From: Elusimicrobium sp.
GTDB lineage: Bacteria > Elusimicrobiota > Elusimicrobia > Elusimicrobiales > Elusimicrobiaceae
Length of the DNA: 64,000 bases
Assembly: GCA_015062115.1 (NCBI GenBank)
Contig: SUVG01000003.1
Coordinates: 161,672-225,671 of the forward strand
Direction of reading: 5' to 3'
Positions 3,293 to 15,993 of the stretch are shown here, in pieces. Position 1 is the first letter of the stretch; every line of letters starts with the position of its first letter. The position numbers and the translations under genes were made by a program. Below the pieces are notes generated by a model. The model did not search any database, was not told where the DNA came from, and saw nothing but the letters and a program-made list of their open reading frames with translations.

Positions 3293-4297
3293 CTATACAA
3301 TGTTAAGTGGAATCATTCCATCCATTACCATCATCTTGCTAGCAATTTCGCCCGTTTTGAACCGCAAATAGCGTTGTGTGGTTGTAATTTTACTATGCCC
3401 AAGGAGCCTTTGTAAATGTTCCAAAGTGCCGCCACGGTTTAGAAAATTCACCGCAAATGAGTGTCTCATATCGTGCGGTCTTATATGGCCGATTTCTGAT
3501 TTTTCACAGGCCTTATTGAGTTGGTATTTTAATTTGTCTTTAGTTATCTTTTCAAACACAAGGCCACTTTTTTGTGGATTGAGTCCTTGTAAAATTCGCT
3601 CTATATCTGAGGTTAGTCCCAAAGTGCGAGGGCATTCTGTTTTAGTTTTAGGAATAAAAATTGTCTTACGGGTAAAATCAATATTTTCCCAACGTAGGCC
3701 CAACAATTCTTGCCGTCTAAGTCCCGTATAAAACCCAATAGTTACGCAAGGCCGTACTTCATCGCTAATAAATGGTAAAAGTTTTTGAATCTCCTGTTCA
3801 TTAATTGGATGAGGTTCAAAAGGTTCTTCATCGTGTTGTTTTTTAACTTTGTGGCAGGGATTGGGTCCGCTGTATTTGTCCCAGTCGCTTAAGCAATTAA
3901 AAAACTTGCTGATAATGCCAAAGTAGCGGTCAGCATTTGCGTAGGAGGTTTCTAAGGCCTTTTGATTGTAAAAACTTTGTACTTCTAATGGAGTTACTTC
4001 CTTTAGGGTATAGTTACCAAAGTGACCTAAAATTTTCTCAAACATTGCCATATAGGTTTGTTTAGAAGGACGCAGTTCTATATGATGCTTAATAAATAAG
4101 GGAGCCATATCTTTGAATAGTTGGCTTTCTTGCATTAAACGTGGGTTATTTTTTGCTTTATAGAAAGAATTGGTGCGTTTAGCCAATTCTTCCTTAGCGG
4201 CTGATTCATTGGTAGCAACAATGTGACGATGTCTTTTGCCCGTCTCATCATAGTAATCAATTCCGTAAAGTCCTTTTTCATTTTGATAAATTTTCAT
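3293..4297 (-). CDS. int: Tyrosine recombinase (integrase) of the island
   Basis: This 334-aa phage-type integrase has an N-terminal arm-binding region, a SAM-like core-binding domain (about 60-150) and a catalytic domain. Catalytic residues visible are R194 (TGLRR), H275-x-x-R278 (HDMR), H301 (GHSK) and the nucleophile Y310 (TTTQRY), so the enzyme looks intact. It is the natural candidate for recombination between the tRNA-Val repeats at the two ends. It sits about 3 kb from the left end, which is unusual because integrases are mostly terminal; defence cargo has been inserted between it and attL. The upstream region is shared with a divergent RHH gene. Confidence 0.93.
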   Translation of the reverse strand: MKIYQNEKGLYGIDYYDETGKRHRHIVATNESAAKEELAKRTNSFYKAKNNPRLMQESQLFKDMAPLFIKHHIELRPSKQTYMAMFEKILGHFGNYTLKEVTPLEVQSFYNQKALETSYANADRYFGIISKFFNCLSDWDKYSGPNPCHKVKKQHDEEPFEPHPINEQEIQKLLPFISDEVRPCVTIGFYTGLRRQELLGLRWENIDFTRKTIFIPKTKTECPRTLGLTSDIERILQGLNPQKSGLVFEKITKDKLKYQLNKACEKSEIGHIRPHDMRHSFAVNFLNRGGTLEHLQRLLGHSKITTTQRYLRFKTGEIASKMMVMDGMIPLNIV

Positions 4298-6632: not shown

Positions 6633-7009
6633 AAACTCAACTTCTATTCACAAATACTGCGTTTATTATCACTTTTCACCTTATACTTCAGGGGCTTTTT
6701 AGACAAAAAAATCCTCTATCCGTTCTATGTAATACTAAAACGTAAATTATTTTAAACTGCTAGTTAGAAATATAACATCAGGTAAAATTCTTGGGAGTAC
6801 ACGACATACTTCACGAGGAACTACACGATGATTATTACTTTCAGTATTCCTATTATGGCAAATATAATTTTTGTGAAATAGGGCCAATGGACCTACTCCA
6901 GCGGGACATAAAGTCCTATTTTTGCCATCAGCTAATTTGCCATCCTACCTTCTAATCTTATATGTTAAAATGTAAGCAAGAAACAAAAAAACACTTTACA
7001 GGGGCGGTT
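6633..7009. other. AT-rich intergenic stretch before hsdM
   Basis: No convincing gene was found. One frame opening at a TTG (6791) runs 54 codons to a TAA at 6953 with a protein-like composition (for example LHDDYYFQYSYYGKYN), but it has no ATG and no ribosome site. It may be a gene fragment left by rearrangement. The promoter of the restriction operon must lie here; no strong consensus box stands out. Confidence 0.4.
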
Positions 7010-8527
7010 ATGATTACAGGAGACGTTAAAAACAAACTGGATAAACTTTGGAATGCTATGTGGAGCAACCAAATGACGAACCCGTGGATAGATATTCAGC
7101 AGATTACCTATCTTATTTTCATTAAAAGTTTGGACGATAACCAAATCAAGCAAGAGCGTATCGTAAATGACCAAATCGCCCACGGTATTAAAGCCACCCT
7201 TAAAGACCCCATTTTTAAGTCAGGCACTTACACGGATAAAGACAATAAAATTTCCGTTCCCTATAAGGATTTACGTTGGTCTACTTTCAAGCATTTTGAA
7301 CCTAAAAAAATGTTTGATAACCTTAAAAACAACGTGTTCCCGTTCATCAAGCAGTTAAAGTCGGACAAGGCCACCGCATTTGCTAATTTTATGGAGAAGG
7401 CAGAATTTGCCGTTACTACGCCGTATATTTTAAGCAAGATGGTGGATTCTTTAAGTGATGAAACCCTCGGCTTTAGTAATAAGGACTTAATGGGTGACTG
7501 CTATGAATACCTGCTATCCAAAATGGCAACTAGCGGAGATAACGGGCAATTTAGAACGCCTCGCCACATTACGCAGATGATGGTGGAACTGGTGCAACCC
7601 ACACTTAAAGATACCATTGTGGACCCTGCTATGGGTACGGCGGGCTTTTTAACTTCTGCCGCTCAGTATATCCAAGCCCATTATTCAAAGGAACTTTTTA
7701 ACAAAACAAATAAAACTCATTTTCATAATGAGATGTTTACGGGGTTTGATACAGATACCGATATGCTCCGTATCGGCTGTATGAATATGACCTTGCACAA
7801 CGTGGATAACCCTACTATTAAATACAACAACTCGCTTTCCCAAGATTATGATGAAAAGGGCAAATACTCGTTGATTTTAGCCAACCCACCCTTTTCAGGC
7901 AGTTTAGAGCCATCCACCGTGTCCAACAGTTTAAATGCAATTAGCGGCGGTACAAAAGCAACGGAACTCTTATTTTTGGCCCTGTTTTTGCGGTTGTTGC
8001 AAGTAGGTGGGCGTTGTGCTTCCGTTGTGCCTGTGGGCGTACTTAATAACACTAATGAAAAAGCCTACACTATCCTGCGTAAAGAATTAGTAGAAAACCA
8101 AAAATTGGAAGCCGTTATTTTTATGCCTTCTGGGGTGTTTGAACCTTATTCAGGCGTACAAACGGGCATTTTGATTTTTACTAAAACTAACTCTGGCGGA
8201 ACAGGTAAAGTATGGTTTTACAATATGGAAAATGACGGCTTGACCCTCAACAAAAAGCGCGACCCTATTGACGATAACGACATCCCCGATATTGTGGCTC
8301 GCTTCCATAACCTAAAAGGGGAAGCCAAACGTACCCGCAAAGATAAATCGTTCCTAGTGGACAAAGATGAAATTGTTAAGAACGATTATGTGCTTAGTTT
8401 CAATAAATACCACGAACGGGAAATTGTTCAGCAAGAGTTTCGGCCCGTACAAGATATTTTGAACTCCATTACCACGCTTGAGAAACAGTTTAAAGACGTG
8501 ATGGCGGAAATTGGCAAAGGAATTTAG
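7010..8527 (+). CDS. hsdM: Type I restriction-modification methyltransferase subunit
   Basis: HsdM transfers methyl groups from SAM to N6 of adenine in the bipartite target selected by HsdS. Landmarks are the N-terminal HsdM helical domain, SAM-binding motif DPAMGTAGFL, and catalytic motif IV NPPFSGS. The start is placed at 7010 (about 505 aa), where MITGDVKNKLDKLW matches the usual HsdM beginning and a G-rich site (AGGGGCGG) precedes it; an in-frame ATG at 6962 adds 16 residues. The gene leads the hsdM-hsdS-hsdR operon and is separated from hsdS by 2 bp. All key motifs are intact. Confidence 0.95.
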   Translation: MITGDVKNKLDKLWNAMWSNQMTNPWIDIQQITYLIFIKSLDDNQIKQERIVNDQIAHGIKATLKDPIFKSGTYTDKDNKISVPYKDLRWSTFKHFEPKKMFDNLKNNVFPFIKQLKSDKATAFANFMEKAEFAVTTPYILSKMVDSLSDETLGFSNKDLMGDCYEYLLSKMATSGDNGQFRTPRHITQMMVELVQPTLKDTIVDPAMGTAGFLTSAAQYIQAHYSKELFNKTNKTHFHNEMFTGFDTDTDMLRIGCMNMTLHNVDNPTIKYNNSLSQDYDEKGKYSLILANPPFSGSLEPSTVSNSLNAISGGTKATELLFLALFLRLLQVGGRCASVVPVGVLNNTNEKAYTILRKELVENQKLEAVIFMPSGVFEPYSGVQTGILIFTKTNSGGTGKVWFYNMENDGLTLNKKRDPIDDNDIPDIVARFHNLKGEAKRTRKDKSFLVDKDEIVKNDYVLSFNKYHEREIVQQEFRPVQDILNSITTLEKQFKDVMAEIGKGI

Positions 8528-8529
8528 AA

Positions 8530-9612
8530 ATGGAATATATAGAACTTTCAGAGTTATGTACTCCTCATACTAAAAATATTGCTGTTAAAGATGTTGCCAA
8601 TCAAAAAGGCAAATATCCTGTGTTTGGAGCCGCGGGTTTAGTTGGATTTATGGACTCTTACCAAATGCCCAATGAGTATGTAGGCATCATCAAAGATGGG
8701 GCTGGAATTGGGCGAACCAATACCTATCCTGCAAAATCTTCGCTTATTGGTACAATGCAATGTCTACTTCCAAAAGACGGAGTCAATGTTAAATATTTAA
8801 TGTATCTTGTACGGTCTTTGAAATTAGGTTCTTCCTATTCAGGGGCAACTATTCCACATATTTACTATAAAAATTATAAAAATACAAAAATTCCCAAAAG
8901 AGAATTAAAACAACAACTTGAAATAGCCAATATTTTGGACAACATAGAACAAGGAATAAAGGTAAAGCAAGAGCAATTAAAAGCATTAGATGAACTCATT
9001 CAATCTCGCTTTACTGAAATGTTTGGTACGTTAGATATGAGTAAAGCTTCAGACGATTGGCAATCTTTAGGATTATTGGCCAAAATACACACAGGTACAA
9101 CACCTTCAACTACAAATGCCGATAACTGGAATGGTGATATTCTCTGGATAACGCCCGCTGAAATAAAATCTGATTCATATTACATTTATGATACTACCCG
9201 AAAAATTACCAAACAAGGCCAGTTATCAAAATCGTTGACCATAATGCCACGTGATACCGTTTTGTTATCCACACGTGCACCTATAGGAAAAGTTGGCATT
9301 GTGGGAAAACCCATGGCCTGTAATCAAGGGTTTAAAAATTTTGAATGTGGTAAAAAATTAAATCCGATTTTCTTATACGTCTTACTAAAATACAATACAA
9401 CTTATTTAAATTCGTTAGGTACAGGCACTACATTTAAAGAAATTTCTAAATCAAATGTAGAAAAGATAAAAATTCCCGTTCCTTGTGTAGAGAAACAAAA
9501 TCAATTTGCTGAATTTGTGCAACAAGTGGAAAAGGCAAAAGAAATTGTTAAAATACAAATCAAGGACTTACAGGAATTGTTAGCCCTAAAGATGGACGAA
9601 TATTTTAAATGA
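8530..9612 (+). CDS. hsdS: Type I restriction-modification specificity subunit
   Basis: This 360-aa HsdS has two target-recognition domains: TRD1 in about residues 1-135 and TRD2 from about 170, separated by a conserved helix (QLEIANILDNIEQGIKVKQE) and closed by a second helix. It determines the split DNA recognition sequence for both methylation and cleavage. It overlaps hsdR by 4 bp (ATGA), indicating translational coupling. Base composition is more AT-rich than in hsdM and hsdR, as often seen where specificity genes recombine. No second hsdS or invertase is present in the window. Confidence 0.93.
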   Translation: MEYIELSELCTPHTKNIAVKDVANQKGKYPVFGAAGLVGFMDSYQMPNEYVGIIKDGAGIGRTNTYPAKSSLIGTMQCLLPKDGVNVKYLMYLVRSLKLGSSYSGATIPHIYYKNYKNTKIPKRELKQQLEIANILDNIEQGIKVKQEQLKALDELIQSRFTEMFGTLDMSKASDDWQSLGLLAKIHTGTTPSTTNADNWNGDILWITPAEIKSDSYYIYDTTRKITKQGQLSKSLTIMPRDTVLLSTRAPIGKVGIVGKPMACNQGFKNFECGKKLNPIFLYVLLKYNTTYLNSLGTGTTFKEISKSNVEKIKIPVPCVEKQNQFAEFVQQVEKAKEIVKIQIKDLQELLALKMDEYFK

Positions 9613-12600
9613 AAAACTTTGATTTTCTAAAAGAACTGACGGACTTTAAAGCACTTTACTCTTTATGCGCGGGGGCAGAGGAATATGTTGTTTCCAACCC
9701 CACAATGAGTGCTATTTTTGCCCGTAAAGCGTTGGAAAATCTGATAAAGTCCTTCTATACTGCCAAATACGGCGGGTATCCAGAGGGTAGCAACCTATTT
9801 TCGCTGATTGAAGATGCACAATTTAAGGCCTATTTTGATGAATCGTTAATTTCTTGCGTGCATTTTGTGCGTAAAGTGGGCAATAACGGCGCACATCAGG
9901 AAGAGGTCTATCCTAAACTAGCGCGTGGATGCTTAAAGGCCTTGCACGAAGCCGTCAAACAAGTGCTGTTTTTAATGGGGGCGTGTAAAGATGTGCCCGC
10001 CTTTGATTCGTCCATTTATAACGCTAAACCTCAAACAGAAAAGGCTACCCAATTACCTAAAGAAGAACCCACGCCAGACGTACAAACCCTGACAAAATAC
10101 AAAAATAACATTGTGCAGGGTATTGAACAAAAGTCATCCATAGATTTTACTGAATACGAGACCCGCAAACTCTATATTGACGAAGCCTTAAAAGAAGCAG
10201 GTTGGCAGATTTGTCAAACCCCAGGCGCAACTACAGCGGGACTAGCGTGTATTGAAGTTAAACTGCTAGGGATGCCCAACAAAGAAGGTTTTGGGTTTGC
10301 TGATTATGTACTTTTTGATAATGACGGTGTGCCTTTGGCCGTGGTAGAAGCCAAAAAAACCTCTGTGGATGAAGTGGCAGGTTCCCAACAAGCGCGGTTA
10401 TACGCCGATTGTATTGAAAAGAAATGGGGCAGACGGCCTGTTATCTTCTATACCAACGGCTATTCTACCCACGTGGTAGATTGTGCAGGGTATCCTGCCC
10501 GTAAAGTGTATGGGTTTTATAGCAAGCAAGAACTACAATCCCTGTTAAACAGGCGGGATTTGTCGGACATAAAAGACACACGGGTAGACAAAAACATTTC
10601 AGACAGACCTTTTATCCAACAAGCCACCACCGCTGTATGTGAAACGTTTAATAAAAAGGCCCGTAAAGCCCTATTAGTGATGGCTACAGGTACGGGTAAG
10701 ACAAGATGTGCTATTTCCATTGTGGACGTGTTACAGCGGGCAAAATGGGCCAACAAAGTGCTATTCTTGGCAGACCGCACAGCCCTTGTAAAACAAGCCG
10801 CCAATGCTTTTACGAAACATTTACCCGATAGCCCGCTTTGTATCTTATCTGAAGAAAAAGAAGATACACGGGATTATAATGCCAAAATCACTTTATCAAC
10901 GTATCAAACAATGCTTAATATCATTGATAAAGAAGATAAAAAGTACGGCATTGCCAACTTTGATTTAATTATATTGGACGAAGCCCACCGCTCTATTTAC
11001 AACAAATATAAAGCCATTTTCCATTATTTTGATTCTCTTATTTTGGGTTTAACGGCCACCCCGCGCGAACAGATTGAAAAATCCACGTATGAAGTGTTTG
11101 ATTTGCCCAAGGGCGAACCTACTTTTGCTTACGACTATAAAACTGCCGTCAAAGAAGGGTTTTTGGTAGATTTCCACGCATTTGAACGTACTACAAACAT
11201 CTTAAAAAATGGGCTTAAATACAAAGACCTTTCAGACGAAGAAAAAGCACAGTATGAAACGTTGTTTACAGAAGAAGGTACTTTCCCTAAAGAAATAGAT
11301 GCTAAACTCTTCCAAAAAACCATTTTAAATCAAGATACCATTGACCGCGTATTGCAAACCCTAATGACAGAAGGATTAAAAACACAAGGCGGCGACAAAC
11401 TGGGTAAAACAATTATTTTTGCCTATAACCACCGCCACGCAGAAGAAATTGTAAAACGGTTTCATATCCTGTACCCAGAGAAAGGCAACGACTACTGCAA
11501 ACTGATTGATAATTACATCAACTATGCCCAAACGTTAATTGATGAATTTGCCAACCCTGAAAGTGATTTGACGATTGCCGTGTCTGTGGATATGTTGGAT
11601 ACAGGGATAGACGTACCCGAAATGTTAAACCTGGTATTTTTTAAACGTGTATTTTCTCAAATTAAGTTTTGGCAGATGATAGGGCGCGGCACGCGTACAC
11701 GCAAGGATTTAGATGTGTTTTCGCCTTCCCGTGATTATTTTGAGAAAGGAGCCGAACCTGTCTTAACACGCCATAATGATAAACAGGGCTTTTATATCTT
11801 TGATTTTTGTGATGTGTTTGAGTTCTTCCGCTTAAATCCCGACGGGCGGGAACCTAAGGCGGCTTTAACACTTAGCCAAAAACTGTTTGAATTAAAGTTA
11901 GATTTAGTTTGCGAGTTACAAAAATATCAGCATCAAGAAAATGAAGAACAAAAAAGTTTTTACGCAAAGTATAAGGCCGAACTCATTGACAAGATTAAAC
12001 ACTTAAACAGAAATCTTATCAACGTAAAATTAGTCCTTAAATACGTAGACAAATATTCTATTGAAAAAAGTTGGGAATATATTAGTTTGTTGGAAGCCAA
12101 AGAGATTAAAAAGCAACTTACGCCCCTTATAGCCCCCGATGACCCCGACGAGAGTGCAAAACTTTTTGATTTGTGGGTATTCAATATGGAACTTTCCCAA
12201 TTGGCGGGCGACAAAGATTATTCCCAGGCCGTTCAGAAAGTAACGAAGATTTGTTCGGAATTACTGGAACATTTGACTGTACCTGCTATAGCGGCCAAAA
12301 AAGATTTTTTGGAAAGCGTGTTGCAAGTTGGTTTTTGGGAAGGGGTTACTTTAACCAAATTAGAACAACTCCGTCAGGAAGTACGCACATTATTACAATT
12401 TTTAGATAAGAACAAGCGCGAAATAATTACGTCTAATTTCTCGGACTTTGTGGTTACTAAAAAAGATGGGCAATCACCTATTCCACAATTCAAAGATTAC
12501 CGCAAACGGGTAGAGGATTATTTGGCGGATAACGTAGACAAAGGGGCTATTGCCAAAATCCATAACTTAGAGAAACTAACTGAGCAAGATATTGAAGAAC

Positions 12601-12935
12601 TTCAAACCATTTTATGGAAAAAACTGGGTACAAAAGAAGAGTATGACGAGGTTGCAAACGGACTAGATTTAGGGGCATTTGTACGTCAAATTGTAGGGCT
12701 TGATAATGAGGTAATATCTAAATTGTTTAACGACTATATCAACCAGTATAATTTTAATTCGGCCCAACAAGAATTTTTACAGTTAATCGTCAATTTTGTA
12801 CGTGCCAATGGAGATATTGAACCACAAGACCTTCAAGATGAACCATTTTCTTATCACGATTACACATCTATTTTCGCGAATACAGGACCATTGTATGACT
12901 TTGTAGACCGATTTCATTCCAGTATTCACATCTAA
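9609..12935 (+). CDS. hsdR: Type I restriction endonuclease/translocase subunit
   Basis: This 1108-aa HsdR begins with a DUF4145-like helical domain (residues 1-125), followed by an HSDR_N nuclease region with a D...EAK centre (FADYVLF near 229, VVEAKK near 245). The SF2 motor has Walker A ATGTGKT (about 358-364), DEAH (about 456) and a motif VI region MIGRGTRTR. It translocates DNA and cuts at unmethylated sites in complex with HsdM and HsdS. The reading frame is complete and the catalytic residues are intact, so the system appears active. Confidence 0.95.
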   Translation: MKNFDFLKELTDFKALYSLCAGAEEYVVSNPTMSAIFARKALENLIKSFYTAKYGGYPEGSNLFSLIEDAQFKAYFDESLISCVHFVRKVGNNGAHQEEVYPKLARGCLKALHEAVKQVLFLMGACKDVPAFDSSIYNAKPQTEKATQLPKEEPTPDVQTLTKYKNNIVQGIEQKSSIDFTEYETRKLYIDEALKEAGWQICQTPGATTAGLACIEVKLLGMPNKEGFGFADYVLFDNDGVPLAVVEAKKTSVDEVAGSQQARLYADCIEKKWGRRPVIFYTNGYSTHVVDCAGYPARKVYGFYSKQELQSLLNRRDLSDIKDTRVDKNISDRPFIQQATTAVCETFNKKARKALLVMATGTGKTRCAISIVDVLQRAKWANKVLFLADRTALVKQAANAFTKHLPDSPLCILSEEKEDTRDYNAKITLSTYQTMLNIIDKEDKKYGIANFDLIILDEAHRSIYNKYKAIFHYFDSLILGLTATPREQIEKSTYEVFDLPKGEPTFAYDYKTAVKEGFLVDFHAFERTTNILKNGLKYKDLSDEEKAQYETLFTEEGTFPKEIDAKLFQKTILNQDTIDRVLQTLMTEGLKTQGGDKLGKTIIFAYNHRHAEEIVKRFHILYPEKGNDYCKLIDNYINYAQTLIDEFANPESDLTIAVSVDMLDTGIDVPEMLNLVFFKRVFSQIKFWQMIGRGTRTRKDLDVFSPSRDYFEKGAEPVLTRHNDKQGFYIFDFCDVFEFFRLNPDGREPKAALTLSQKLFELKLDLVCELQKYQHQENEEQKSFYAKYKAELIDKIKHLNRNLINVKLVLKYVDKYSIEKSWEYISLLEAKEIKKQLTPLIAPDDPDESAKLFDLWVFNMELSQLAGDKDYSQAVQKVTKICSELLEHLTVPAIAAKKDFLESVLQVGFWEGVTLTKLEQLRQEVRTLLQFLDKNKREIITSNFSDFVVTKKDGQSPIPQFKDYRKRVEDYLADNVDKGAIAKIHNLEKLTEQDIEELQTILWKKLGTKEEYDEVANGLDLGAFVRQIVGLDNEVISKLFNDYINQYNFNSAQQEFLQLIVNFVRANGDIEPQDLQDEPFSYHDYTSIFANTGPLYDFVDRFHSSIHI

Positions 12936-12964
12936 ACAGTACAGTTAAATTTAAGGAGAAACAA

Positions 12965-14761
12965 ATGGCCTCTCAAGATAAAGAATTAAAAGAGTTATTA
13001 AAAGAATTAAAAGACGGGTATATACAATTGCCAGATTTTCAAAGAGATTGGGTCTGGGATGATAATAGAATTAAATCTTTGATAGTAAGTTTGGCCAATG
13101 GTTATCCTGTCGGCGCAATTATGTTTTTAGCGACTGGCGGTGAAATAAATTTTAGTTATAGACCATTTACGGGGGTCGAAAACAAAGATGTAAGACCTAC
13201 AAGCCTGACCTTAGATGGACAGCAACGATTAACGTCTATATTAAATGCTATGTTTTTAAAAAAACCTGTTGAAACACAAACAGAACAAGGTAAAAAGGTA
13301 AAGAAATATTATTACTTTAATCTAGATGAAATATCGAAAGACCATATTGATTGGGACAATGCTGTAATAAGTGTTAATGAAAAGAAACAAATAACAAGCA
13401 ATTTCGGGAAAAATGTTGATTTGGATTTATCAACAACAGAAAAAGAATATAGCGAAAAATATATTCCCGTAAATATTATTTTTGATGAAATAATTTATTC
13501 TAACTGGAAGAATGCATATATTAATTATTACCAAAGCAAAGATTTAACTAATCTAACAACATATTTTGATATTATTCAGAAGTTCGAAAACAAGGTAAGA
13601 AACAAAATATATAACTATCATATACCAGTTATTACTCTTTCAAAAGATACTCCCAAGGAAGCCGTCTGTCAAGTTTTCGAAAATGTCAATACAGGTGGCG
13701 TTGCTTTAAATGTTTTTGAGTTAGTAACGGCACTATTTGCTTCTGATGGATTTAAGTTAAGAGAAGATTGGGAACATCGGAAGACAAACTTTAAAAATAG
13801 CAATGTGCTATCTTCCGTAACAGCAACTGATTTTTTAACAGCAATGACACTATTTACCAAATATATTGCATATTCAAAAGATAATAGTAATGCTGTTCTT
13901 TGTAAAAAGAAAAATGTCTTGGAATTACGTCTGAATGATTATAAAGAAAACGCGGATATACTTGAAAGAGCATTTATTGAAGCGGCTAAATTTTTAAATG
14001 AATTATGCATATATAGCAGTAGAGACTTACCTTATTCAACTCAACTTATTCCTTTGAGCGCGACGATTGCGGCATTGGGAGACAAGTTCCATTATCAAAA
14101 TGTAAAAGAAAAAATTAAACAATGGTTTTGGTGTGGGATATTTGGTGAATTGTATGGCGGAGCCAATGAAACTAGATATGCTCAAGATATAGTAGGACTT
14201 ATGGATTGGATAAATGGCTCTAATAAACCCCCAACAACAATAGAAAGAGCATATTTTGACCCTTGCCGCTTACTGTCCCTGCAAACAAGAGGTTCTGCCG
14301 CATACAAGGGAATAATGGCTTTGTTTATGAAAAATGCTAAAGATTTTATATCTGGCTCTAGTATGAACCTAACATATTTTATAGATAAAGCAGTAGATAT
14401 TCATCATATCTTTCCTAAAGATTATTGTTTAAAAGAACAACTCGGCTTGCAAGATGACAAATGGAATTCAATAGTAAATAAGACTCCCTTATCTGCTAAA
14501 ACAAACAGAATGATTGGCGGAAAAGCACCTAGTGATTATTTATCAAAAATAGAAGAAACTATGACAGACCCTTCTAAATTAAATGAAAATTTACTATCTC
14601 ATTGCATTTCAATTGAGGACATAAGAACCAATAATTTTGATAGTTACTTTATTAAACGAACAAAATCAATATTAAGTTTGATAGAAAATGCAATGGGAAA
14701 GAAAATGTCAGGATTGGATTCTGAAAATGTCATTCAAAAATATGGAGTTTCATTACTTTAA
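12965..14761 (+). CDS. DUF262/DUF1524 nuclease (GmrSD-like)
   Basis: This 598-aa protein fuses a ParB-like DUF262 domain with the DGQQRL motif (about 84-89) to a C-terminal DUF1524 His-Me-type nuclease with HHIFPKDY (about 480-487). Such fusions include GmrSD-type IV restriction enzymes acting on modified phage DNA, and relatives in other defence systems. A strong AAGGAGA site precedes the ATG, 29 bp after hsdR, so it is probably part of the restriction operon or coupled to it. The substrate (glucosylated DNA or other) cannot be told from sequence. Confidence 0.85.
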   Translation: MASQDKELKELLKELKDGYIQLPDFQRDWVWDDNRIKSLIVSLANGYPVGAIMFLATGGEINFSYRPFTGVENKDVRPTSLTLDGQQRLTSILNAMFLKKPVETQTEQGKKVKKYYYFNLDEISKDHIDWDNAVISVNEKKQITSNFGKNVDLDLSTTEKEYSEKYIPVNIIFDEIIYSNWKNAYINYYQSKDLTNLTTYFDIIQKFENKVRNKIYNYHIPVITLSKDTPKEAVCQVFENVNTGGVALNVFELVTALFASDGFKLREDWEHRKTNFKNSNVLSSVTATDFLTAMTLFTKYIAYSKDNSNAVLCKKKNVLELRLNDYKENADILERAFIEAAKFLNELCIYSSRDLPYSTQLIPLSATIAALGDKFHYQNVKEKIKQWFWCGIFGELYGGANETRYAQDIVGLMDWINGSNKPPTTIERAYFDPCRLLSLQTRGSAAYKGIMALFMKNAKDFISGSSMNLTYFIDKAVDIHHIFPKDYCLKEQLGLQDDKWNSIVNKTPLSAKTNRMIGGKAPSDYLSKIEETMTDPSKLNENLLSHCISIEDIRTNNFDSYFIKRTKSILSLIENAMGKKMSGLDSENVIQKYGVSLL

Positions 14762-14782: not shown

Positions 14783-14812
14783 TTGATACGTAATTTTGGT
14801 TAGTGCTAAACT
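14783..14812 (+). promoter_or_regulatory. Putative promoter of riboswitch transcript
   Basis: A -35 box TTGATA (14783-14788), an 18-bp spacer and a -10-like TAAACT (14807-14812) would start transcription at about 14819, right at the base of the riboswitch fold. A second AT-rich box (TATAAA) overlaps. The call rests on consensus match only. Confidence 0.4.
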
Positions 14813-14814
14813 AT

Positions 14815-14905
14815 AAAAACCATAAAGAGTGTACGAGGGGCAAGCCTGATGACTACACAGCAACCTACCAAAGGGCAAGGTGCTAATGCTTGGAAGATGG
14901 GAACT
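14815..14905 (+). ncRNA. S-box / SAM-I-SAM-IV clan riboswitch-like RNA
   Basis: The order of conserved S-box blocks is present: AAAGAGTG, GAGGG, GCCTGATGA (kink-turn strand), GCAACC, AAGGTGCTAA and GGAAGATGG. Helices can be drawn: P1 CCAT (14820-14823) with ATGG (14897-14900); P2 GTGTA with TACAC; P3 GCAACCT with AGGTGC. P4 is almost absent, which points to a SAM-I/IV-like variant and not to canonical SAM-I. An outer helix TTGGTTAGT (14796-14804) with 14903-14913 may extend the base. It should sense S-adenosylmethionine and control the gene at 14987. It lies inside the defence island, just after SAM-using restriction genes. Confidence 0.72.
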
Positions 14906-14915
14906 AGAATCAATT

Positions 14916-14940
14916 TAAACCCGTCCTCGTGATGGGTTTA
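14916..14940 (+). terminator. Hairpin after riboswitch aptamer
   Basis: A stem of about 9 bp (AAACCCGTC / GATGGGTTT, one G-U) with loop CTCGT follows the aptamer. The trailing sequence TATTCGTTTTAT is only moderately T-rich, so it could be a weak terminator or part of an expression platform that works together with the next hairpin. Confidence 0.5.
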
Positions 14941-14950
14941 TTCGTTTTAT

Positions 14951-14982
14951 ATACTCCTGTGGTAAATTAAGAACAGGAGTAT
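14951..14982 (+). promoter_or_regulatory. Shine-Dalgarno-sequestering hairpin
   Basis: Perfect 10-bp arms ATACTCCTGT (14951-14960) and ACAGGAGTAT (14973-14982) enclose a 12-nt loop. The right arm contains the AGGAG ribosome site of the ATG at 14987, and the left arm supplies the complementary CTCCT. Translation of the downstream gene would be off when this hairpin forms. Together with the upstream aptamer this looks like a translational switch. Confidence 0.65.
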
Positions 14983-14986
14983 TATT

Positions 14987-15217
14987 ATGAAAAATGAAAA
15001 AACTGCCGATAACCTAGCGTATGATTTAATTTTAGGAAAATTTATGTATCGGGTATTAGAATCCGCCGAACTTATATCCCAAGATGCTTTTAAAAAGTAT
15101 TTTAATCCTAGAGGCATAAAGTTTCCCATTGAAATGACCGTAAAGTTGTCTTTTGCCCAATTACAAAGTGTTAAGGTATATTTATCCAAAAATGGCACGA
15201 AGGATGTCCGAAATTGA
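14987..15217 (+). CDS. Unrecognised 76-aa protein under riboswitch-like control
   Basis: I do not recognise this protein. It is a soluble, mostly helical-looking 76-aa product; the segment LILGKFMYRVLESAELISQDAFKKY loosely recalls small SHOCT-like proteins found beside recombinases, but the match is weak. Its AGGAG site is hidden in the hairpin at 14951-14982. The frame ends at a TGA (15215-15217) but remains open for 36 further sense codons to a TAA at 15326, so the original gene may have been about 113 codons, or the stop may be recoded. No other gene follows before the island end. Confidence 0.6.
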   Translation: MKNEKTADNLAYDLILGKFMYRVLESAELISQDAFKKYFNPRGIKFPIEMTVKLSFAQLQSVKVYLSKNGTKDVRN

Positions 15218-15328
15218 TTTGGGACCACCTTAAAAGAATCTAAACAATATCAGGAGCTGAAGAGACACTATTTAAACCTCCTTACCAAACAGCTAAAAGA
15301 AATACAAAGCAATGAAGGGGTATATTAA

Positions 15329-15911: not shown

Positions 15912-15966
15912 TTTTAAATGGTGCCCAGTATAGGATTTGAACCTATGACCTTTCCCATGTCAAGGG
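15912..15966. repeat. attR: 3' half of intact tRNA-Val
   Basis: This perfect 55-bp copy of 60-114 forms the 3' half of the functional tRNA-Val gene. By the usual logic of tRNA-targeting integrases, this half was supplied by the element and restores the tRNA. Crossover lies somewhere within the shared 55 bp. Confidence 0.92.
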
Positions 15967-15993
15967 AACGCGCTACCCCTGCGCCAACTGGGC
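15919..15993 (-). tRNA. tRNA-Val (GAC)
   Basis: This 75-nt cloverleaf has acceptor GCCCAGT / ACTGGGC, D arm GCGC...GCGC, anticodon arm TTCCC-TTGACAT-GGGAA with anticodon GAC, T arm ATAGG-TTCAAAT-CCTAT, discriminator A and an encoded CCA. Both halves are involved in flanking duplications: the 3' half at 67-114 and the 5' half at 17578-17599. Confidence 0.96.

Follow-up and report, generated by a model that had tools for sequence, protein, structure and literature searches.

A probable P4-less, SAM-I-like riboswitch with a dual expression platform on a tRNA-Val island of Elusimicrobium

S-box (SAM-I) riboswitches are the textbook switches of methionine genes, and most of them act by transcription termination alone. 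Among the related RNAs, SAM-IV has no P4, a four-pair P1 and the pseudoknot PK-1, and carries P5 and PK-2, while SAM-I/IV has P4 and is without PK-1 (PMC6890682). The types of expression platform that riboswitches use have been described as well, and in the known dual platforms for transcription and translation attenuation the ribosome binding site lies inside the terminator (PMC2258182). In the part of the literature that our search covered, no description of P4-less S-boxes or of their phage copies was found. We analysed a stretch of 64,000 nucleotides from Elusimicrobium sp. (contig SUVG01000003.1, positions 161,672 to 225,671; hereafter the window), in which an initial annotation had read an S-box-like RNA ahead of an orphan gene. 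Judged by its sequence, this RNA is an S-box (SAM) riboswitch of a compact type that lacks P4, and the case for a riboswitch is strong. We consider it probable that it binds SAM and is OFF with SAM, that it joins a compact, SAM-I-like aptamer without P4 to a dual expression platform, that it is mobile and drives accessory proteins, and that its target here is the adjoining gene of the family C6. The aptamer is composed of these elements:

14817-14903, plus strand: P4-less SAM-I-like aptamer (RF00162, 43.5 bits; lineage model R1, 104.8 bits)
14820-14900, plus strand: P1, CCAU 14820-14823 with AUGG 14897-14900 (97% of cells paired, 33 sequences)
within 14829-14858, plus strand: P2, 14829-14833 with 14854-14858 (changes on both sides in 4 of 5 pairs)
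14834-14836 and 14851-14853, plus strand: kink-turn, CGA/GAC
14837-14839 and 14845-14847, plus strand: P2b
14841-14892, plus strand: pseudoknot PK-1, CAAG 14841-14844 with CUUG 14889-14892 (covariation)
14859-14884, plus strand: P3 with the SAM-pocket residues CAAC and UGC (columns invariant or nearly so)

The match to the Rfam SAM model RF00162 was obtained with a lowered threshold; it spans model positions 1-108 of 108 at E=1.3e-8 and confirms the S-box blocks in the order in which they had been read. The gathering score of this model is 44.4 bits, and the window copy, at 43.5 bits, falls 0.9 bit below it. Because of this shortfall the default Rfam scan of the window, which returned tRNAs only and no riboswitch, missed the RNA. 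The covariance-model search that had been proposed as a check places the RNA in the SAM clan, with a score under the gathering score. It is the sole RF00162 match in the 1.44-Mb genome, where no further one appears even at E<=10. The lineage model R1 scores the aptamer far higher, the window sequence itself being part of the R1 seed. Folded by itself, 14815-14960 shows no unusual stability (z -0.38), and the bare-fold z-score was dropped as uninformative. The riboswitch case rests on the covariance model, the 38 homologous copies and the covariation, not on folding energy.

These copies come from the same order, in which 32 of 149 genomes have RF00162 matches and 30 of the match-bearing genomes have at least one above the gathering score. 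Homologues of the window RNA occur in 31 related Elusimicrobiota genomes, most of them above the gathering threshold, and the P4-less form is present in 38 copies; among the matches listed, the named records of the lineage that bear the RNA are gut Elusimicrobiota. In the 33 distinct aptamers, 97% of the cells in P1, P2, P2b, P3 and the pseudoknot are paired, compared to 26-42% in slid controls, and eight pairs have changes on both sides versus a shuffle mean of 1.7. Thus, P1, P2 and P3 are not only formable, as had been noted, they are also paired across relatives, and they follow each other in the SAM-I order with the kink-turn. The pseudoknot between the P2 loop and J3/4 is paired throughout (100%), as in SAM-I, with both-side changes in two pairs and covarying variants CAAG/CUUG, CGAG/CUCG and CAGG/CCUG. 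The four-way junction helix P4 had been described as nearly missing; its lack is borne out, and it is wholly absent, all 38 copies having instead a linker of 1-7 nt from the pseudoknot strand to P1 and retaining PK-1 and the kink-turn. An A-G mismatch takes the place of the inner P1 pair. At columns 52/65 of our alignment A1, a P3 position, about half of the sequences have a non-standard pair, mostly A-C, and the rest have G-U or G-C; A-C and G-U are near-isosteric wobbles. The map from A1 to SAM-I numbering follows the T. tengcongensis RNA. When the SAM-contact positions listed in PMC6890682 are mapped onto A1, the contact residues are those of SAM-I except for SAM-I residue 8, which differs. 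SAM is the inferred ligand. The order's only match that is not P4-less (31.4 bits, in G115:C73 13286-18923) lies between metK and a second metK-like gene, beside a MoxR-like ATPase.

With the SAM-I RNAs of RF00162, the window-type RNA shares the P1-P2-P3 order, the kink-turn, PK-1, the SAM-pocket residues and the terminator/antiterminator logic. Unlike them, it is without P4, has an extra Shine-Dalgarno (SD) hairpin stage coupled to the 5' strand of the aptamer, and targets mostly non-methionine genes, often on mobile elements. The absence of P4, the four-pair P1 and PK-1 are shared with SAM-IV (RF00634); however, no P5/PK-2 subdomain is seen and the kink-turn is of the SAM-I type. SAM-IV membership was rejected, as the genome has no RF00634 match at E<=10 and the terminator follows P1. 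The core is the same as that of SAM-I/IV (RF01725), and membership in this family was rejected as well, with 37.4 bits against a threshold of 41.1 and PK-1 present. Neither of the two further models that had been suggested thus accounts for the RNA; within the SAM clan, it fits best as a SAM-I-like subtype that lacks P4, as opposed to a standard SAM-I member.

The RNA lies in a defence island, as the initial annotation had recognized, and the boundaries of this island can be given:

60-114, no strand: direct repeat of the 3' part of tRNA-Val at the far end of the island (55 bp, identical to 15912-15966)
3293-4297, minus strand: tyrosine integrase of the island (PF00589, E 2e-24)
6962-14761, plus strand: type I restriction-modification (RM) genes (HsdM, HsdS, HsdR) and a GmrSD/DUF262 gene, upstream of the RNA (Pfam, PADLOC)
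15912-15966, no strand: direct repeat within tRNA-Val (15919-15993, minus strand) at the near end of the island

The tRNA-flanking repeats and the integrase mark an integrative island, which further holds RloB, an AAA_21 ATPase, Fic and an excisionase-like HTH protein; the RNA and its C6 gene are the last cassette before tRNA-Val. The tRNA has the anticodon gac, and the 55-bp repeats closely enclose a second pair, of 23 bp, at 178 and 15780. A specific tie of the RNA to the methyltransferase system was not upheld. About 13 of the 38 relatives have genes homologous to those of the window island, or RM or recombinase genes, within 9 kb, and the link of the RNA to RM is therefore partial. In the window genome (95.6% complete), metK was not found and the archaeal-type synthetase is absent too, which reflects either loss or an assembly gap; as a trait of the order, a missing metK was rejected, since 139 of 149 genomes have the gene.

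Around the aptamer, the leader contains the elements of an expression platform:

14783-14812, plus strand: promoter candidate TTGATA-18-TAAACT, with TG before the second hexamer (9 of 12 matches)
14896-14925, plus strand: antiterminator, GAUGGG 14896-14901 (P1 3' strand) with CCCGUC 14920-14925 (duplex of -10.0 kcal/mol)
14917-14949, plus strand: intrinsic terminator, stem 14917-14925/14931-14939, U-rich tail to 14949
14951-14960 and 14973-14982, plus strand: hairpin hiding the Shine-Dalgarno sequence GGAG at 14976-14979 (-13.6 kcal/mol vs -5.0 in shuffles)
14819-14963, plus strand: proposed ON-state duplex, 14819-14824 and 14827-14833 with 14958-14963 and 14950-14956 (-13.6 kcal/mol)

Promoter-like sites such as this candidate are at least as common in shuffles; an extended -10 (TGCTATACT-like) directly 5' of P1 recurs in most relatives with diverse cargo. 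The terminator of the window has an imperfect U-run (UUUAUUCGUUUUA), and its 3' arm is a repeat of the P1 3' strand GAUGGG. In all relatives the 3' arm likewise repeats the P1 3' strand, as GAUGGG or, in most copies with a CAAUGGG P1, as CAAUGGG, and an equivalent of the antiterminator is found in 38 of 38 copies. The SD-hiding hairpin is also maintained, with a mean of -13.6 kcal/mol in the relatives against -4.9 when shuffled. The aptamer 5' strand (P1 5' strand, J1/2 and P2 5' strand) is complementary to the 5' arm of this hairpin and the bases after it, in the window as ACCAUA..GAGUGUA with UAUACUC.UGUGGU. The resulting duplex compares to -5.7 kcal/mol in shuffled window sequence, where 0.3% of shuffles are equally good. 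Over the 38 copies its mean is -13.4 kcal/mol, against -6.8 for coding-sequence windows (p 1e-18), and among the matches listed from other phyla and viruses, 53 of 70 loci have a duplex better than 95% of their shuffles.

On sequence and energy, the platform looks complete, with a single aptamer joined to two predicted OFF devices, a terminator and the occlusion of the ribosome binding site. With SAM bound, P1 would stay closed and the terminator would form, and in mRNA that is read through nonetheless the Shine-Dalgarno site would be locked in its hairpin. At low SAM, the P1 3' strand would pair with the 5' arm of the terminator, which is antitermination, and the freed aptamer 5' strand would pair with the anti-Shine-Dalgarno arm, opening the ribosome site. 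Since this pairing is available, a fall in SAM should relieve termination and expose the ribosome site together, and the architecture predicts that the gene is ON when SAM is low. Unconstrained folding of the whole leader yields the OFF state, in which P1, the terminator and the SD hairpin are all formed (-45.3 kcal/mol), and the forced ON state, at -39.3 kcal/mol, falls short of it by 6 kcal/mol when no ligand is present (ViennaRNA), hence switching would have to be co-transcriptional. Termination and occlusion of the ribosome binding site by one ligand are shared with the known dual platforms (PMC2258182), but in contrast to these the SD hairpin here is separate, and it is the aptamer 5' strand that would open it.

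A simpler reading takes the RNA as a functional SAM riboswitch that acts by transcription attenuation only, the complementarity between aptamer and SD hairpin following incidentally from the conservation of the anti-SD. This would be in line with the way most S-boxes work, and indeed the duplex is no better than shuffles in three relatives (G057, G084b and G043) and no better than 95% of shuffles in 17 of the 70 loci elsewhere, among the matches listed. The duplex signal could also partly reflect a shared anti-SD composition, though base shuffles control for that. However, the complementarity runs past the anti-SD into UGUGG/AUGG, matching the P1 5' strand, it occurs in several phyla, and in two relatives (G126a and G105) it forms a perfect helix of 14 uninterrupted pairs, and P2 itself is changed there. 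Attenuation as the only mode appears unlikely to us. The dual platform that we favour amounts to a switch with two stages that lends itself to testing, a single helix under ligand control governing both termination and ribosome access.

No ordinary methionine gene is found downstream of the window RNA. The frame that follows is one of 76 codons, and it continues beyond its stop:

14987-15217, plus strand: 5' part of the orphan gene (76 codons, C6 family), ending at UGA (68% identity to the homologue in the relative G018)
15218-15328, plus strand: in-frame continuation past the UGA, conserved like the front part

The initial annotation had rightly described an orphan, non-methionine gene. Its 76 codons are the front of a longer gene that is cut by the in-frame UGA at 15215-15217; the frame stays open for 36 more codons, and this tail matches the G018 homologue. 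Recoding of UGA was rejected, as UGA is the stop codon of large genes in the window (4 of 27 long ORFs). The C6 family has no Pfam or PADLOC family and no significant PHROG, and no phage homologue was found in viral contigs. Its linkage to the RNA is complete: in the 149 genomes the C6 family occurs at six places, each of them no more than 1.3 kb away from a copy of the RNA. The proposed recurrence of the RNA-gene pair is thereby seen, and the claim of a SAM-clan RNA ahead of an orphan gene holds. The broken gene raises the question of a degenerate, non-functional relic whose aptamer score has slipped under the threshold. Besides the UGA, the window score is the lowest among the Elusimicrobiota P4-less copies, and in one relative (G076) the RNA is kept before only a C-terminal fragment of the C6 gene. 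Against this, all switch elements are intact in the window, the consensus differences A25G and C32U are present in other copies too, and conservation past the stop equals that before it (dN 0.188 and 0.187, with synonymous sites saturated), which points to a stop that arose recently, is a sequencing error, or is read through. Decay is accordingly an improbable explanation, and we keep to a working riboswitch.

The P4-less form extends beyond the phylum. Among the matches listed, a motif scan recovered it in Firmicutes, Spirochaetales and others; it is also present in 11 IMG/VR contigs and in the complete Ruminococcus phage NatCom_28274. All viral copies tested score above the RF00162 threshold, one copy (L186) adjoins contractile-tail genes, and no plasmid copy was found. 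Among the matches listed, 9 of 70 P4-less copies are upstream of metK and the others mostly precede orphan proteins, whereas 25 of 26 P4-bearing copies from the same scan precede methionine or sulfur genes (Fisher p 4e-13, computed with the P4-bearing MetK locus L130 as non-methionine). The best explanation is that integrative elements and phages of gut bacteria carry the P4-less subtype around, and that it drives accessory proteins whose function is mostly unknown. Such cargo, together with the lost P4 and the altered inner P1 pair, could hint that the subtype has switched to another ligand, such as SAH, MTA or a different adenosyl compound. Yet the pocket positions are kept, and the metK genes behind nine P4-less copies in other bacteria argue that this form still senses SAM, so that we regard a ligand change as very unlikely.

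With SAM as the probable ligand, an effector switched on by SAM depletion, as first hypothesized, would be compatible with the data. A more far-reaching and quite tentative idea, which we think may well be wrong, is a mobile SAM-riboswitch subclass by which gut phages and integrative elements would read host SAM and switch on small conflict proteins when it falls. Equally tentatively, such proteins might serve defence, counter-defence or inter-phage conflict, for example under attack by SAM-consuming or SAM-cleaving phages. The P4-less form on phages and tRNA islands with non-methionine orphans would make SAM a signal for mobile elements, and would provide an entry point to several unstudied gene families. 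The commonest other cargo, among the matches listed, is a family of about 100 aa from phages and gut Firmicutes (L186-L196, L208 at PV036439.1 44045-44515, L068 and others). Its AlphaFold model has a pLDDT of 94.5 and no PDB match at E<=0.001, with weak matches to uncharacterised phage proteins. Part of the cargo is SAM-lyase-like in predicted fold: a viral protein trailing the riboswitch in L194 (about 1571-2182 of IMGVR_UViG_3300001598_000126), and also L159 and L116. The L194 protein matches the phage SAM lyase 6zm9 (Foldseek E 2.2e-5; Pfam S-AdoMet_lyase at just E 0.07); we do not claim an active lyase, as the catalytic Glu seems absent by eye. N-formylglutamate amidohydrolase-like proteins stand behind the P4-less riboswitch in Firmicutes and Elusimicrobiota (L119, L120, L139, L153, L160, L174 and L067), called by Pfam on the L067/G075 copy and by sequence at the remaining loci, and possibly serve methionine salvage from N-formyl compounds. 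What follows the RNA in the Elusimicrobiota relatives is either other unnamed genes or a recurrent operon (L029, L032, L037, L052-L055, L058, L060-L064 and L066). Its order is a WYL-type regulator upstream (in most), the P4-less riboswitch, a short ORF, an AAA+ ATPase, a 170-aa protein, a small membrane protein and a TPR protein, and in many of these loci a TTCCGGAAAATACCGTA-like stretch 5' of the RNA replaces a clear -10.
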